This document shows, piece after piece, positions 17,882 to 58,201 of a DNA stretch of 64,000 nt (position 1 is the first letter of the stretch; each line of letters starts with the position of its first letter). The stretch lies in contig NZ_AP024525.1 of assembly GCF_020886775.1 (NCBI RefSeq), forward strand, positions 3,224,001 through 3,288,000. Reading direction: 5' to 3'. This DNA is from Sinomonas cyclohexanicum (lineage in GTDB: Bacteria > Actinomycetota > Actinomycetes > Actinomycetales > Micrococcaceae). The notes under the pieces were generated by a model that worked only from the letters and a program-made list of their open reading frames with translations, searched no databases and had not been told where the DNA came from. The position numbers and the translations under genes were made by a program.

Positions 17882-18046
17882 CGCAACAGCCTAGTGGCGC
17901 GGCCAGCCCGGCCGGAGCGCCAGACTGCCGAGGCACGGCTCGATGCCGCGCACGACGCCGGTGACCCGCCGCCGTCGGGCGCCGCACCGGCGGCGCGGTT
18001 CGCGTGCCGGGGGTAGACCGCACGCGCGGGGGCTGTCCGCGGCGCG

Positions 18047-18122
18047 CCTGAGGCGAACCGGCATGGATGACGCGAACCGGCGCGCCTGACGCGAGCCGGC
18101 GGGCCTGCAGCCAGTCGGTGGG
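18047..18122. repeat. degenerate 19-bp tandem array, four units
   Basis: Units at 18047, 18066, 18085 and 18104, pattern CCTGACGCGARCCGGCGGG; a fifth partial copy runs into the panE-like stop. It lies between the MFS promoter and the panE-like 3' end. No gene is seen in the 252-bp interval. Confidence 0.7.
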
Positions 18123-24555: not shown

Positions 24556-24818
24556 TCAGTCCGAGAAGGTGACGGGCTCCGCGAGCGTGCCGAGCGACGC
24601 GGTGGCCGTGATGCCGGCCAGCGTCGGCTGGGCCGTGGTCCACACGACTTCCACTGGCGGCAAGCCCCCCTTGAGCACACCCTGATCCCTTGAGCACGCC
24701 CTGATGTGTGCAGTGCGCGGTGGTGGCGGTGGATGTGCAGTGGGCGTCGCCGCGAGCGACGTCGACGGCGCAGGCTGCGTGCTCGACAGTCTCCAGCGGT
24801 AGCGGATCAGGGCTGTGC
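24556..24818 (-). pseudogene. frameshifted C-terminal remnant behind the Pro/Thr-rich gene
   Basis: After the stop of the anchored protein gene, coding-like sequence continues: one frame gives LETVEHAACAVDVARGDAHC and then HQGVLKG. A 19-bp duplication shifts the frame, and GGLPPVEVVWTTAQPTLAGI plus TATASLGTLAEPVTFSD follow to a TGA at 24556. High third-position GC in these pieces and the clean restoration of frame when one 19-bp copy is removed point to a decayed or variable C-terminal domain. No family recognised. Confidence 0.5.
24668..24705 (-). repeat. 19-bp tandem duplication causing a frameshift
   Basis: Two copies of CCCTTGAGCACRCCCTGAT, at 24668-24686 and 24687-24705, differing at one base. 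Nineteen is not a multiple of three. Confidence 0.85.
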
Positions 24819-29098: not shown

Positions 29099-29160
29099 AG
29101 CGGCACAGCAGGCCGTGCCGCTGGCCTGCTGTGCCGCTCAAGGCCTGCCGTGCCGCTCAA
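29099..29160. repeat. 19-bp repeats, family A, left flank of DUF559 gene 1
   Basis: Two tandem units GGCCTGCYGTGCCGCTCAA (29123-29141, 29142-29160), preceded by an inverted copy AGCGGCACAGCAGGCC (29099-29114) that forms a perfect 16-bp hairpin with unit 1 around an 8-nt loop. The block starts 10 bp after the rarD-like stop and ends 26 bp from the 3' end of the DUF559 gene. Confidence 0.9.
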
Positions 29161-29186
29161 GGCGGCCCGCTGTGCGATCCGCCCCG

Positions 29187-30149
29187 TCAGGCTGACAGCT
29201 TTCGCGACCTCGCGAATGCGGCCTCGAGCCTCGCGGCCAGGCTCCACGGTGCGTCGAGGTCCGACCACCGGGCCCTCACGACTATCCAGCCCTCTTCCGT
29301 CAGTGCTACCTCGCGCCTGCGCTCCAGCAGCAGGGCCTCCTGAGTCGGGCGATAGTCGAAGTACTTCGAGTCGCCGTCGAACTCGAGGATCACCAGCAGC
29401 TCGGGCCACGCGAAATCGGCACGGAACACTCCGTGGGGCGTGAGGATGCCGTACTGCAGCTCGGGAGCCGGAATGCCCGCCGCGGCAAGGGCAAGGCGGG
29501 TCCGGGTCTCGCCCGCGGACTCGGCCCTCGCATCGAGCACCGCAAGCAGGTCCTCCACCCTGCGCGATCCTCGCACTGCTCCGCTCCGCTCGGCGGCAGC
29601 ACGGATCCGCTCGATCGTCACCCCTCGACGCAGTGCGCTGTCTCCGACGATCGCGGCGCGCTCGATGTCCAGGATGCGGGCACAGTCCGCGACCGCGCGT
29701 TCCACACTCACCGCTGTGGCGATGCGGCCCGGTGCGAGCGCCACTCGTGCCAGATCCATCTCGGGCACCGCGAGCGAATGTGCCACGACGTCGGCTCCGT
29801 GGCTCGTCTTCGATCCGGAGTACGGCACCGTGACGTGCACCTTCGGGCCGACGTCCCACGTGGTGAGGCCGTGAGCGCGTGCGCCCGAGGTATGGCTGTA
29901 GACGGCGGCGCCGTTGGTCGACAGCCAATGCGCCTCGATCCGCAGCTGGTCCTGCTCCCAGGGCCTCAGAGCACGCCATATGGCACGCCGTGCATACACG
30001 CCGCGCCGCAGCCGGACGAGCTCCTGCCGCCTGACTGCCTCGGTGAGGACCCGATGGTCGATTCCACGTGCTGCGAGGTCGCGGGTGGAGGCGAGAGTAA
30101 CGTTCGGCCATCGCACATCGAGCAGGGCAGTCAGGCGGGAAGCGCTCAT
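29187..30149 (-). CDS. DUF559 protein with AbiEi-like N-terminus (protein 1)
   Basis: A 320-residue, two-part protein. The N-terminus (about 10-60) is a winged helix of the AbiEi antitoxin type (STRDLAARGIDHRVLTEAVR, then RLRRGVYARR). The C-terminus is a Vsr/PD-(D/E)XK-like DUF559 domain: FRADFAWPELLVILEFDGDS at about 243-262 and EEGWIVVRARWSDLD at about 288-302. ATG 30149 is leaderless (minus AAGACT, 6 nt). No toxin gene is adjacent. Both flanks carry the same 19-bp repeat family. DNA binding plus nicking of those repeats is my inference. Confidence 0.75.
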   Translation of the reverse strand: MSASRLTALLDVRWPNVTLASTRDLAARGIDHRVLTEAVRRQELVRLRRGVYARRAIWRALRPWEQDQLRIEAHWLSTNGAAVYSHTSGARAHGLTTWDVGPKVHVTVPYSGSKTSHGADVVAHSLAVPEMDLARVALAPGRIATAVSVERAVADCARILDIERAAIVGDSALRRGVTIERIRAAAERSGAVRGSRRVEDLLAVLDARAESAGETRTRLALAAAGIPAPELQYGILTPHGVFRADFAWPELLVILEFDGDSKYFDYRPTQEALLLERRREVALTEEGWIVVRARWSDLDAPWSLAARLEAAFARSRKLSA

Positions 30150-30326: not shown

Positions 30327-30429
30327 GTGGGCGGCATAACAGGCCGGCGGCACGGCCTGCTATGCCGCCCACGGCCTGCTGTACCGCCCACGGCCTGCTG
30401 TACCGCCCACGGCCTGCCATGCTGGTCCC
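30327..30429. repeat. 19-bp repeats, family A, right flank of DUF559 gene 1
   Basis: Tandem units GGCCTGCTRTRCCGCCCAC at 30354-30372, 30373-30391 and 30392-30410, a diverged fourth at 30411-30429, and an inverted copy at 30327-30345. Unit 1 and the inverted copy form an 18/19-bp hairpin with an 8-nt loop, the same geometry as the left flank. CATGCTGGCCCCGGG palindromes continue to about 30490. No gene is seen between 30150 and 30560. Confidence 0.92.
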
Positions 30430-54432: not shown

Positions 54433-55148
54433 CCCTGCGCGAGCGCCGCGTCGAAGCGGTCAAGGGCGATCTGCGCGATCACGGGCGCGGGCAGCAGCGG
54501 GGCGGCGACGGCGTCGGCCCCGGCCTTCGCGAGCTGGTCGTGGAAGTAGCCCGGCGCGAGGAGGTAGGAAGCGATGAGGACGCGCACGGCGTCGTCCGCG
54601 GGCCCGGCATCTGCCGGCCGGGCCTCCTCGGCGCGCAGCTCCGCGACGGCCTCGGGCACGGTCGGCGACGCGCTCGCGCCGTACCCCGGAAGGACGCGGT
54701 TGGGGATGCGGCGGCGGAGCATGTCGGCGACGGCGTCGACGCTGTGCGCGGCCTGCGGATTGGAGGAGCCGGCTGCGGCGAGGACGACGGCGTCGTCCGC
54801 TCCCAGCCCCGCCTCGTCCAGGCGCGCGGCGAGCAGGTCCGCGAGCCGCTCATCGGGACCGAGCGGGCCCGCCGCGAGCGTGCCAGGGCGGGAGGCCGCC
54901 GCTCGCGCGATGTCCACCTTGACGTGGTACCCCACGCTCAGCAGGAGAGGCACGACGACGGCCCTCGCCCCCGCGGGCAGGCCCGCCACCACGTCGGGCA
55001 GCTCGGGGCCGTGGACGTCCACGTAGGCGTCCAGGACGGTAAGCCCAGGCCGGGCGGCTCGGATCTGCTCTATGACGGCCAGGATGGCCGCCCTTCCCTC
55101 GGCGTTGCTCGTTCCGTGGGCGCATGCGACGAGGATGTCCTGGGTCAT
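54429..55148 (-). CDS. sirohydrochlorin chelatase, CbiX/SirB-like
   Basis: A 239-residue two-repeat class II chelatase. Active-site histidines: H11 in ILVACAHGTSN and H92-region in LLLSVGYHVKVDIAR, with ASYLLAPGYFHDQL in the second half, as in CbiX/SirB enzymes that insert iron (or cobalt) into sirohydrochlorin. It complements the CysG fusion at 37.4 kb to make siroheme for Sir. Leaderless start: minus TACGCT, 6 nt, ATG 55148. Confidence 0.88.
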   Translation of the reverse strand: MTQDILVACAHGTSNAEGRAAILAVIEQIRAARPGLTVLDAYVDVHGPELPDVVAGLPAGARAVVVPLLLSVGYHVKVDIARAAASRPGTLAAGPLGPDERLADLLAARLDEAGLGADDAVVLAAAGSSNPQAAHSVDAVADMLRRRIPNRVLPGYGASASPTVPEAVAELRAEEARPADAGPADDAVRVLIASYLLAPGYFHDQLAKAGADAVAAPLLPAPVIAQIALDRFDAALAQG

Positions 55149-55218
55149 GAGGCGAGCGTACTCGGCGTCCGTTCACGCGGCGGAAACCCCTGCCGGGCCC
55201 GCGACTAGGATGAAACCC

Positions 55219-55656
55219 ATGAACGAGATGTTCCTGGAGCGGTTCCGCGCGCTTGTCCCCAAATACCTCGAGGATCCCTGGCAGCCCGCAGACGGCATCT
55301 CGGAGGCGGAGCTCGACGCCGCCCTCGAGGAGCATGCGTTCACCATCCCGCAGGCGCTGCGCGAGTTCTACCTCGCGCTCGGCGGCTCGGAGCTCATGGA
55401 GGCGTACCACTACTTCTGGGACCCCGAGGAGCTCGAGGTCGACGACGAGGGATTCCTCATGTTCCTCGAGGACGAGGACGAGCAGTTCACGTGGGGCTTC
55501 CGCTCCGGCGACCTGCGCGTGCCGGACCCGATCGTGTACCGGAAGAACAACGCCCGGGGCGAGTGGGTCTCGGAGGACGGGACGTTCTCCGAGTTCACGT
55601 TCGACATGTTCGAGTGGGTCTTCAGCGAGGACGACGAGGAAGGCGAAGAGGGCTAG
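55219..55656 (+). CDS. SMI1/KNR4 (SUKH)-like protein
   Basis: A 145-residue, strongly acidic protein. It has the SUKH pattern: ISEAELDAALEEHAFTIPQA, then LREFYLALGGSELM, and a beta-rich middle with GFLMFLEDEDEQFTWGFR. SUKH proteins are often immunity proteins for polymorphic toxins or contact systems, but no toxin gene is adjacent. Leaderless start: TAGGAT (55206-55211), 7 nt, ATG 55219; ATG 55210 is in frame but would overlap the box. Confidence 0.7.
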   Translation: MNEMFLERFRALVPKYLEDPWQPADGISEAELDAALEEHAFTIPQALREFYLALGGSELMEAYHYFWDPEELEVDDEGFLMFLEDEDEQFTWGFRSGDLRVPDPIVYRKNNARGEWVSEDGTFSEFTFDMFEWVFSEDDEEGEEG

Positions 55657-55679
55657 GATCCCCGCCAGTCCGGGCCGAA

Positions 55680-55825
55680 AAGTGATTTACGTCTATCACT
55701 GGACTTTTTACAGATCTGTCATATGCTTGTGATGGGTTCACTTCTTAGCCTCCAGTGAATCCGGGTGCGAACGGAAACGGCCCCGGGAATCGGCGTTAGC
55801 TGAGTCCCGGGACCACCCCGTTTAA
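55680..55825 (+). other. AT-rich patch followed by possible structured RNA leader
   Basis: 55680-55755 is markedly AT-rich for this chromosome and contains GTGAT/ATCAC inverted repeats. It is followed by TTCACT/AGTGAA (about 55737-55758) and CCCGGGA (55785) / TCCCGGG (55805) stems. Could be a promoter plus structured leader; I could not assign it to a riboswitch class. Confidence 0.35.
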
Positions 55826-55831
55826 CCGCCC

Positions 55832-55888
55832 CCCGTTGGGGGGTCACTTCCCCGTTGGGGGGTCACTTCCCCGTTGATGGGTCACTTG
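55832..55888. repeat. 19-bp repeats, family B, left flank of DUF559 gene 2
   Basis: Three head-to-tail units CCCGTTGGGGGGTCACTTC at 55832-55850, 55851-55869 (identical) and 55870-55888 (three changes). The block ends 113 bp before the DUF559 start. Confidence 0.93.
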
Positions 55889-56001
55889 CCGGCCGGGCCG
55901 GGCCTGTGGAGGACAAGTCAGTTTCGCGTGATCCCGCGGAAAACGGCGCGACCTGTGGATAACGATGAGCATGGCACCCCGAACCGTGCCACGATGCCGC
56001 C

Positions 56002-56925
56002 ATGACATCACCCACGGCTCTCGAGCTCATGCTCGCCCACCCATTCACCTCCACTGAAGCCCGTCGTCTCGGTCTCGACTTTGCGGACCTCATCCACCAA
56101 GATGTGACACGCATCAGCCGCGGGATCTACGTGCCGCGAGAGGGCGAGTCCTCGCTGCTGGACCGCATTCGCGCGCACCTCGCTGTGACTGACGGAGCTT
56201 GGGCTTCCCACAGGACCTCCACCGCGATCCACGGACTCTGGCTGCCGGACCAGTCCTCCGACCATTCATTGCTGCACCTGAGCAGGCCGTCGCATGTGCC
56301 CCGAGTGAGGCGCAAGGGCGTCATTGGTCATCGAGTCACCGCACTGCCAGGAGAGGTCGTCGAGTTCCTCCCCGGCATACTGGTCAGCTCACCGGCAAGG
56401 TCTTGGCTCGAGATGGGCCATGAGCTTGGACCGGTCTCGCTTGTTGCGCTCGGCGATCAGCTCATCCGAAAGCCTCGCCCGGCATTTGAGGCCCGGTCGG
56501 AACCGTTCACCACCAAGGATCAACTCGCCGCCCTAGTGCAGCTCCACCCGAAGATGAGGGGCGTAGCCAAGTGCCGTGCAGCTCTCGCCGACATGCGGGT
56601 GGGCGCAGACTCCATTCCTGAGACGCTCCTGCGCCTCTGCCTCCTCGCCTGGGGCTTCCCCGAGCCTGACCTCCAGATCATCCTCCGCCCGTCCGGCCCC
56701 TTCTCCTTCAGTGCGGACATGGGCTATGCCACCTTCAAGATCGCGATCCAGTACGACGGCGCCCATCACCTCAGCGACGAACAACGCTTACGCGATGCTC
56801 GCCGTGACGCCGCATTCCGGAACGCAGGTTGGGCAGTCATCGTCGTGACTGCTGCGGACTTAGAGAACGACTTCGCTCGCGTACGCCACGAGTTGCGGAA
56901 GCTTCTCGCCGCGCGCGCCGCTTGA
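56002..56925 (+). CDS. DUF559 protein with AbiEi-like N-terminus (protein 2)
   Basis: A 307-residue relative of the protein at 29.2-30.1 kb. N-terminal wHTH-like segment: TSTEARRLGLDFADLIHQDV then RISRGIYVPREG (about 16-50). C-terminal DUF559/Vsr-like domain: SFSADMGYATFKIAIQYDGA at about 234-253 and NAGWAVIVVTAADLEND at about 272-288. The usual acidic residue of the E-x-D-G motif is Gln here (IQYDG), so catalysis may be altered. Leaderless start: CACGAT (55990-55995), 6 nt, ATG. Both flanks carry a 19-bp repeat family unlike that of protein 1. Confidence 0.75.
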   Translation: MTSPTALELMLAHPFTSTEARRLGLDFADLIHQDVTRISRGIYVPREGESSLLDRIRAHLAVTDGAWASHRTSTAIHGLWLPDQSSDHSLLHLSRPSHVPRVRRKGVIGHRVTALPGEVVEFLPGILVSSPARSWLEMGHELGPVSLVALGDQLIRKPRPAFEARSEPFTTKDQLAALVQLHPKMRGVAKCRAALADMRVGADSIPETLLRLCLLAWGFPEPDLQIILRPSGPFSFSADMGYATFKIAIQYDGAHHLSDEQRLRDARRDAAFRNAGWAVIVVTAADLENDFARVRHELRKLLAARAA

Positions 56926-56953
56926 TCCCGCGGCCGATGACCCCATCAACCGG

Positions 56954-57048
56954 GAAGTGACGCCTCAGGGGTGAAGTGACCCCTCAACCGGGAAGTGACG
57001 CCTCAGGGGTGAAGTGACCCCTCGACGGGGAAGTGACCCCTCAGGGGA
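56954..57048. repeat. 19-bp repeats, family B, right flank of DUF559 gene 2
   Basis: Five tandem 19-bp units starting at 56954, 56973, 56992, 57011 and 57030, pattern GAAGTGACSCCTCARSGGG, alternating between two variants. They are in inverse orientation to the left-flank units and are followed by a degenerate GGGAGGTGACTCC at 57063. Confidence 0.93.
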
Positions 57049-57097
57049 GGAGGCGGGCGTGAGGGAGGTGACTCCGGGCTGGGGACACGGGTCGGGG

Positions 57098-58201
57098 TCA
57101 GGCCTTGCGGTCCACCACTGCATCGGCGAAGGCGGCCAGGGAGTCCTTGACCACTCCCTCGGGGAGCGGCGCGAGCGCGGCCTTGGCCGCGTCGGCCCAC
57201 TCCCGCGCCACGGCCCACGACTGGTCCGTCACCGGGTGCGAGGAGATCGCCGAGACGGCCTCGGCGAGGGCGTCGTCGCTCGAGAGGTCGCCGTCCACGA
57301 GGGCGAGGACGCGCTGGGCGGAGGCATCGCCGTCGGCCGCTGCACGGCGCAGCAGCAGGACGGGCAGGGTCGGCACGCCCTCGCGCAGGTCCGTCCCGGC
57401 GATCTTGCCGGAGGTGACCTTGCCGCCGGTCACGTCGATGACGTCGTCGGCGAGCTGGAATGCCACGCCGACCTTCTCGCCGTAGTCCACCAGCACGGAC
57501 TCGTACTCGGCAGGCGCCCCGGAGAAGATGACGCCGAACTGGCCGGACGCGGCGATGAGCGAGCCGGTCTTGTCCGAGAGCACGGAGATGTAGTGCGCGA
57601 GCGGGTCCTCCCCCTCGCTCGGGCCCACGGTCTCGTGCAGCTGGCCGAGGCACAGCCGCTCGAACGTGCGCGCCTGGATCGACAGGGCCCGCCCGCCGAG
57701 ATCGGAGACGAGGATCGAGGCGCGCGCAAAGATGAGGTCTCCCGCGAGGATCGCCACGGTGTTCCCCCACACCTCGTGGGCGGTGGGAGCGCCGCGGCGG
57801 TAGGGCGCGGAGTCCATGACGTCGTCGTGGTAGAGCGTCGCGAGGTGCGTGAGCTCCACGACGGCGGCCGCCTGGAGCACCTCGGCCCGGGCAGGGTCGC
57901 CGAGGTGCGAGGCGAGGATGGTCAGGAGCGGTCGCACGCGCTTGCCGCCAGCCTCCATGAGGTGCTTGCTCGTCGCGTCCGCGAGCGGGTCCGAGTTGGA
58001 GATGGCCTCGCGGAGCACCCGCTCGACGCGCGCCATGCTCGTGGTGATCGCAGGGCCCAGCTCGGCGTCCTCCGCAATGGCGGCAAAGCCCGCCGGCAGC
58101 TGCATGCCGACGGCGATCGCCGTCGTGGTGGGGGGCGGCTCAGCGGACTCGGGGCGGCCATGCCCCGCGTGCGTCCAGCGGCTGTCTGCAGATTCAGTCA
58201 C
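57098..58201 (-). CDS. polyprenyl diphosphate synthase (menaquinone side chain)
   Basis: A 367-residue trans-isoprenyl diphosphate synthase. First aspartate-rich motif YHDDVMD at about 122-128, second FQLADDVIDV at about 249-258, and GGKRVRPLLTILA at about 85-97. With menG and menJ-like genes upstream it most likely makes the C40-C45 chain of menaquinone. The N-terminal 30 residues are non-conserved. Leaderless start: minus TAGGCT, 7 nt, GTG 58201. Confidence 0.9.
   Translation of the reverse strand: MTESADSRWTHAGHGRPESAEPPPTTTAIAVGMQLPAGFAAIAEDAELGPAITTSMARVERVLREAISNSDPLADATSKHLMEAGGKRVRPLLTILASHLGDPARAEVLQAAAVVELTHLATLYHDDVMDSAPYRRGAPTAHEVWGNTVAILAGDLIFARASILVSDLGGRALSIQARTFERLCLGQLHETVGPSEGEDPLAHYISVLSDKTGSLIAASGQFGVIFSGAPAEYESVLVDYGEKVGVAFQLADDVIDVTGGKVTSGKIAGTDLREGVPTLPVLLLRRAAADGDASAQRVLALVDGDLSSDDALAEAVSAISSHPVTDQSWAVAREWADAAKAALAPLPEGVVKDSLAAFADAVVDRKA

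Follow-up and report, generated by a model that had tools for sequence, protein, structure and literature searches.

Why a nuclease-like gene should lie between two inverted arrays of one short repeat, and whether that repeat belongs to the protein that the gene encodes, is the question raised by gene 2 of the analysed window, a stretch of 64,000 nucleotides from the genome of Sinomonas cyclohexanicum (G000, a single 4.41-Mb contig). A sequence-only reading of this DNA had described the arrays and the gene, assigned the product a Vsr-like fold, likened the layout to RAYT/REP and suggested that protein and repeat are coupled. These points were followed up by comparison of protein families and predicted structures, of the flanks of homologous genes, and of repeat positions among related genomes.

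Gene 2, its product and the two arrays

The layout first described, of three left and five right inverted units in exact 19-bp register around an intact gene, was confirmed when the repeats were read again (Table 1). The left array is composed of CCCGTTGGGGGGTCACTTC twice and CCCGTTGATGGGTCACTTG once at 19-bp spacing; the right-array units, starting at 56954, 56973, 56992, 57011 and 57030, show a higher-order period of 38 bp, alternate units being closer to each other, and the longest inverted pair (63 nt, 81% complementarity) holds gene 2 between its arms. The adjoining genes are presumably a SUKH/SMI1-like gene and a polyprenyl synthetase gene. Upstream of the left array (approximately 55690-55820), a conserved leader-like stretch (TCATATGCTTGT ... 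CCTCCAGTGAATCCGGGTGCGAACGGAA) followed by a G+C-rich hairpin was noticed by eye in Sinomonas genomes, both those that have the gene and those that lack it; it is possibly a small RNA with a terminator, and Rfam gave no match at gathering scores for window positions 55000-58000. Two further 19-bp tandem repeats, with other units, lie at 18040-18107 and 24668-24705 of the window.

Table 1. Positions of gene 2, gene 1 and their arrays in the window
Feature	Position	Strand	Basis
Left array of gene 2, three 19-bp units	55832-55888	(-), reverse sense relative to gene	Sequence
Nuclease-like gene 2, 307 aa, intact; AbiEi-like N-terminal region and DUF559/MTES_1575-like C-terminal domain	56002-56925	(+)	
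AbiEi-like region, aa 15-138	56044-56415	(+)	PADLOC AbiEi model, E 7.3e-8, and secondary structure of the predicted model
C-terminal nuclease-like domain, aa 205-300	56614-56901	(+)	E207, D239, Q250 and H256 invariant across 19 homologues
Right array of gene 2, five 19-bp units, 38-bp alternation	56954-57048	(+), forward sense	Sequence
DUF559-like gene 1, 26-28% identical to gene 2	29187-30122	(-)	Scripted open frame, start provisional
19-bp array on one side of gene 1, GCCGTGCCGCTCAAGGCCT type	29112-29163	(.)	
19-bp array on the other side of gene 1, CACGGCCTGCTATACCGCC type	30351-30417	(.)	

AbiEi models were the only PADLOC models that matched the gene 2 protein, and the start of the matched N-terminal region looks like a winged helix in the predicted model, three helices being followed by a beta hairpin. 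Pfam DUF559 and MTES_1575 matched the C-terminal end of the protein with scores under the curated cut-offs; at a threshold of 0.01 across 19 family members, DUF559 matched 16, MTES_1575 13, DUF2726 5 and AbiEi_4 one, and no HUH/Y1 transposase of the IS200/IS605 type was among these matches. NCBIfam gave nothing useful, gene 1 protein being searched in part. The structure model of the gene 2 protein (pLDDT 91, pTM 0.86) has a predicted core of helix, three strands, helix and strand that is Vsr/EDxHD-like and carries the conserved residues, among which Q250 stands where DUF559 usually has E. In a Foldseek comparison with the PDB, the best match was the catalytic domain of I-Bth0305I (3r3p; E 0.058, TM 0.75 on the target, 103 columns), which we take to be an EDxHD member and which a profile comparison likewise matched weakly (E 0.55); nothing reached E 0.001, and TnsA was among the poor matches (E 0.19). 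The Vsr-like fold is supported by a confident model and by a best match that is a homing-endonuclease catalytic domain, but one at an E value above that level.

The nuclease core is like that of the Vsr-fold homing endonucleases; unlike I-Bth0305I, the gene 2 protein has a fused AbiEi-like N-terminal domain and its gene has a flanking unit of its own, and no intron or intein was seen around the gene, which lies in an intergenic place. With the AbiEi antitoxins of type IV toxin-antitoxin systems it shares the N-terminal region, by PADLOC and, weakly, by Pfam AbiEi_4 (the one member of 19); it differs from them by its C-terminal nuclease-like domain and by repeats that stand on both sides of the gene and throughout the genome. 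No toxin partner was noticed by eye among the neighbouring frames of gene 2 in the list of open reading frames. Six orthologue pairs gave dN/dS values of 0.13-0.18 (dS above 1 in three pairs and tiny in one), and these sequences indicate that the gene has been held under purifying selection.

Units flanking the homologues

The flanks of homologues were compared by the best left-right 19-mer match between the two sides, scored separately in inverted and direct orientation with a threshold of at least 17/19. The larger set was the best 80 of 248 stretches encoding a relative, 79 of them by title Micrococcaceae records (Sinomonas, Arthrobacter, Paenarthrobacter, Pseudarthrobacter and one MAG) and one titled Sporosarcina; 78 were usable, L126 and L147 being left out for a short flank. 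The proposed coupling of protein and repeat, according to which homologues should carry gene-specific flanking arrays, was borne out: an inverted match of at least 17/19 was found at 53 of the 78 loci, 25 having none, and control windows from the same loci reached 17 in 0 of 153 cases in either orientation. Direct matches of at least 17 occurred at 19 of the 78, and the inverted match exceeded the direct one at 56 loci, fell below it at 8 and equalled it at 14. Permuted flank pairs of this set reached 17 in 72/1000 cases, as is expected because related loci share units; after removal of loci with similar flanks, an inverted match of at least 17 was present at 18 of 28. In a first set of 34 loci (26-100% identity), which did not include L041, L042, L044 or L038, L039 and L043, inverted matches exceeded direct ones at 29 loci, with 2 lower and 3 ties, and the mean inverted match was 17.8/19 against 14.1 for 300 permuted pairs, 5 of which reached at least 17. 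The two sets overlap in some genomes and in ancestry; the count on the 28 representatives addresses this. As a control in the repeat-rich genome G000 itself, 28 windows scored 13-16, except for one at 17 and one at 18. L038, L039 and L043 are three pieces of one broken nuclease homologue at G000:C1:2603369-2604099.

Whether such arrays stand equally often beside unrelated genes had also been asked. For neighbouring predicted genes they do not, as the inverted match was 15 or less in all 39 and a single one of them had a match of at least 17 in either orientation; unrelated genes can also be enclosed by dispersed inverted arrays, and the four stretches looked at hold what we take to be a Nudix-like gene (G000, L013), TetR-like genes (L218 and L230, in two relatives) and, at L203, unlabelled frames. 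The unit consensus from the 61 loci with a match of at least 16 consists of AnGTGA, a variable middle and GC(A/G)(A/T)(C/T), an architecture whose conservation would fit a single binding mode with changing specificity.

Among Sinomonas, 24 homologue loci were found in 13 of 15 genomes (E of 1e-60 or lower), and at 20 of them at least two units stood on each side, in reverse sense on the left and forward sense on the right. Each locus generally had one period, which was 19, 21, 22, 32 or 14 bp, so that the 19-bp length seen in the window did not hold as a general rule. Units in the wrong sense were present at 4 of the 24 loci (L192, L199, L200 and L202), and at the weak loci L193, L199, L201 and L202 the inverted match equalled the direct one. 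Where a genome held two or more homologues, as eight did, these carried different units.

Counts of the unit RTGACCCCTCAVCG across the 15 genomes, uncorrected for ancestry, broadly followed the closeness of the resident homologue. With homologues 68-100% identical, there were 38 copies in G000, 34 in G037, 51 in G084, 50 in G104 and 21 in G121. G162 and G006, with 65-66% homologues flanked by another unit, had 11 and 10; G200, whose 64% homologue lies elsewhere in its genome and has another unit, had one. The count was 0 in G150, G186 and G199, with 50-55% homologues and other units, and 0 in G175 and G135, which had no homologue at 1e-60. G197 and G198 speak against a strict pairing, holding the gene (a 78% homologue) but few repeats, 7 and 5, respectively. 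A second unit, GAGGTGACTCCTCRNCG, numbered 9 in G162 and 10 in G104, where the second homologue of each is flanked by it, and 3 in G000, 2 in G197, 1 in G198 and 0 in the remaining 10 of the 15 genomes. Sinomonas genomes without a close homologue thus appear, from these counts, to carry none or almost none of the units. Over 197 family genomes, ACGCTCNCTCACNTNTGG (one mismatch) gave scattered low counts in 26, which supports the link weakly.

Gene 1 belongs to a second clade (Table 1), which was run on two slightly different usable sets of 29 and 30 loci. A flank match of at least 17 in either orientation was found at 16 of 30 loci against 0 of 59 controls; over 29 loci the direct match was higher than the inverted one at 14 and lower at 6. 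Direct matches being the commoner there, the strict inverted rule fails in this clade.

Dispersed units and their distribution among genomes

The repeat of gene 2, which had been called private to it, is found at many other places. The pattern GAAGTGACNCCTCANCGGG with 0-2 mismatches gave 67 matches in the genome (34 forward, 33 reverse) against one for a backward control, and these occupy 29 places, the gene 2 locus and 28 others, of which L018 is probably there by chance; the pattern RTGACCCCTCAVCG finds additional places. A home-made gene finder placed 6 of these 28 within a predicted frame and the other 22 in intergenic DNA, an overlap of less than 30 bp with a gene end being counted as intergenic. 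One array (L025:2476-2536) runs in frame within a frame of 635 aa and encodes GHDPSTQ-like heptads whose copy number varies among species: in the 15 genomes (relatives L243-L257), at least two heptads were present in G000, G037, G104 and G121, about one in G162 and G084, and no clear one in the gene-holding G197, G198 and G006 or in six other genomes. A target duplication was not definable at L025 in the 15 genomes, the loop being too variable.

A palindromic form was found in another genus of the family. AAGTGACCCCGCGTTGC (one mismatch) was counted in 197 family genomes and numbered 21 in G009, 15 in G086, 14 in G137, 36 in G152, 29 in G164 and 23 in G187, with 1-2 copies in four other genomes and 0 in 187. 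All six rich genomes fall in one genus (g9), here called Arthrobacter-type because the gene flanks of G137 match named Arthrobacter and Paenarthrobacter loci. In 19 stretches, mostly chosen for such pairs, inverted 17-mers stood 48 bp apart in 21 of 21 pairs, forming 65-bp palindromes with 26-bp arms and a 13-bp loop that differs between copies; some AAGTGACCCCGCGTTGC matches had no listed partner. Pairing between the arms holds in 95.8% of cells, and at one paired position C-G (9) alternates with T-A (6). The covariation score was reached by 0 of 500 shuffles, 59 of 500 had at least the observed three pairs with both partners changed, and a slide of -3 scored slightly higher (0.052 against 0.048), and with these mixed shuffle and slide controls the covariation counts as weak support. 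The gene of G137 and that of G164 each have a 65-bp palindrome on either side. Among the flanks read in G009, G086, G152 and G187, weak homologues being covered in part, no homologue with the palindrome unit was seen, and these four repeat-rich genomes count against a strict link between gene and repeat. Over both genera, the sequences show related units to be dispersed, apparently as mostly extragenic arrays or palindromes.

The dispersed arrays of G104 and G084 (20 stretches per genome) lie largely at matching places with differing unit numbers, and array positions being mostly common between species, spread to new sites is presumably rare or old. For ten G000 places compared with G104/G084, the match covered both flanks at seven (L006, L016, L017, L021, L024, L025 and L028) and a single flank at three (L011, L012 and L027). 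At L016 and L021, matched on both flanks, and at L011 and L027, matched on one, the 19-bp AAGTGACC type in G000 stands against a 21-bp CATGACC type in G104 and/or G084. The other six showed no switch to the 19-bp type: L006 and L017 hold other types in G000, and at L012, L024, L025 and L028 the unit is unchanged or mixed between G000 and relatives, or the reading is ambiguous. At L019, the G000 unit is present in G000 itself, and G200 has there the unit that stands on both sides of its own gene, in at least three copies; neither was found in G135 and G175, and G104 is likewise without units at L020. At some shared sites species carry different units, some of which match their own gene. Such differences would be expected if the resident system continually replaced the units; independent seeding of a favoured place could also give them. 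The left flank of L019 is inverted in 7 of 11 matching relatives (G162, G084, G104, G037, G121, G197 and G198), which marks the site as rearranged, the end of the rearrangement coinciding with the repeat array. Of four dispersed places sought in relatives for an empty-site comparison, two were found with both flanks, at a divergence too high for exact ends, and by eye no target duplication was seen at the gene locus or at dispersed arrays, where the flanks are too divergent for ends to be fixed.

Interpretation of the gene and its repeats

The reading that we prefer, and hold to be somewhat better than an even bet, is that gene and repeats form a co-inherited pair resembling a REPtron and built on a different enzyme. 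As described in PMC8266576, a REPtron is a TnpA-REP (RAYT) gene with REP/BIME/REPIN sequences, the gene being flanked by dispersed, mostly intergenic repeats; gene presence tracks repeat abundance there, and the gene shows no sign of mobility on plasmids. The early comparison with RAYT/REP proved apt in that the units studied here are scattered over the genome, lie mostly outside genes, often form inverted pairs, and are frequent within the genus only where a close homologue is present. Gene 2 shares with REPtrons the flanking by repeats, their dispersal to mostly intergenic places, the inverted pairs and the lack of signs that the gene moves on plasmids; in the Sinomonas counts, uncorrected for ancestry, gene presence also appears to go with repeat abundance. 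The enzyme differs, that of REPtrons being HUH/Y1 and that of gene 2 a predicted PD-(D/E)XK/Vsr-like nuclease with an AbiEi-like domain. REP sequences are palindromes of 20-50 nt with a GTAG-like tag; the units here have a conserved GTGA in its place, stand in Sinomonas in tandem arrays of 14-32 bp, and number tens of copies, not hundreds. In g9 they form 65-bp palindromes.

How the gene is inherited bears on the foremost alternative, an ordinary transposon in which the nuclease is the transposase, the arrays are terminal binding sites and gene-less arrays are MITE-like derivatives; we regard it as unlikely. In nine of the 15 Sinomonas genomes (G000, G037, G084, G104, G121, G162, G197, G198 and G006) the gene adjoins the polyprenyl synthetase gene, the intergenic place being free of it in the other 6, and when G137 was compared with 13 named loci or genomes of Arthrobacter type it was at one common locus; it keeps mostly to one syntenic place per genus, often between inverted copies of its own unit. 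This constancy speaks against a transposon, as do the lack of a near-identical whole-element copy in its own genome, where the next-best homologue is 58% identical, the scarcity of matches in plasmids (3 of 72,556 records, 32-35% identity) and phages (1 of 50,697, 29%), and the varying loops of the 65-bp elements. In its favour are the direct repeats arrayed in opposite senses at the two ends, the dispersed gene-less inverted pairs, with units in both senses at 14 of the 28 G000 places, the homologue placed elsewhere in G200, the poor TnsA match, and G006 (L082, G006:C8:57698-59910), where the nuclease gene is reversed relative to the synthetase, as a flip between the inverted arrays or an independent arrival would give. 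IS21- and Tn7-like elements likewise end in arrays of short direct repeats in opposite orientation, to which the protein of the element binds; the sole strong IstB match in the genome (L029) was without 19-mers within its 3.7-kb stretch, and IS21 ends were rejected as the source.

At the same intergenic place, a different DUF559-like frame was seen by eye in G150 (L086), apparently in the synthetase-side spacer and with AACAGGGTCG(G/C)GACGGGA repeats near both of its sides; in G186 (L087), also by eye, the spacer holds approximately 1 kb of other repeats of GGGGTTTCGGCGC types.

Slightly less probable again is that the repeats are operators, by which an AbiEi-type protein represses its own gene, the dispersed sites being its regulon. 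AbiEi antitoxins bind operator repeats, and the N-terminus of the gene 2 protein is AbiEi-like by PADLOC, which suits this explanation; against it are one of the two arrays lying downstream of the gene, some arrays lying inside reading frames, and the 22 intergenic places of G000 lying between convergent genes in 11 cases, co-directional genes in 9 and divergent genes in only 2 (home-made gene finder), and it leaves the invariant nuclease-type residues unexplained.

The folding of the repeats suggests, with rather small probability, that the palindromes are hairpins selected by the host as bidirectional terminators or mRNA-stabilising structures, the nuclease simply adjoining some of them. Compared with mononucleotide shuffles, five selected Sinomonas inverted-pair sites folded as long hairpins at z -4.7 to -9.1, the range being -4.7 to -11.7 with one 65-bp element included, as is inevitable for inverted pairs, and many sites are at gene ends. 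Single units or arrays of Sinomonas are mostly not hairpins, inverted pairs of arrays being so, and the two arrays at gene 2 folded no better than shuffles (z about 0). Host-selected hairpins would also leave unexplained that each nuclease homologue is accompanied on either side by a unit of its own and that the unit is rare in members of the genus without a close homologue. That the gene is a defence nuclease and the arrays self-marks or decoys is very improbable, for although the AbiEi-like part was found by the defence library PADLOC and the fold is restriction-like, only AbiEi models matched and different units at the same site are not predicted.

For the co-inherited pair that we prefer, the following course may be proposed. 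The AbiEi-like N-terminal part would bind the unit, with its conserved ends and variable middle, and the Vsr-like C-terminal domain would nick or cut at or near it. Less certainly, repair of the cuts from other arrays may copy units between sites, and such a cut-and-copy drive might make arrays uniform, extend them and now and then start one at a new place. Arrays would survive where they do no harm: next to the end of a gene, in the gap between two convergent genes, or within a protein loop whose frame they keep.

The pair is not filed as a REPtron because its enzyme class differs. It is held to be new in kind since the HUH feature is not found in it and no description of such a nuclease-repeat pairing appears in the listed titles and abstract openings of the open-licence PMC literature on DUF559, AbiEi, REP/RAYT/REPIN and EDxHD; in PMC12306157, which has a table line for Arthrobacter livingstonensis, the text contains neither "RAYT" nor "nuclease". 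A stricter view could place it as a variant within the REP/RAYT kind. With a confidence that falls a little short of even, we propose that it is a second, independent repeat-maintaining system, in which a Vsr-fold nuclease with a winged-helix reader spreads and homogenises its own unit across the genome, with several genes and units per genome and two DUF559-type clades, and which leaves behind REP-like palindromes and in-frame loop repeats.

The origin of dispersed extragenic repeats, and their likeness to one another, is an old question that has so far been tied mainly to the HUH RAYTs. If the proposal is true, a second, unrelated enzyme would go with such repeats, and the pairing of nuclease and repeat would have evolved more than once. 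It would also give a function to part of the widespread DUF559/MTES_1575 and AbiEi-like family, and would offer many natural pairs of protein and recognition unit for work on specificity.
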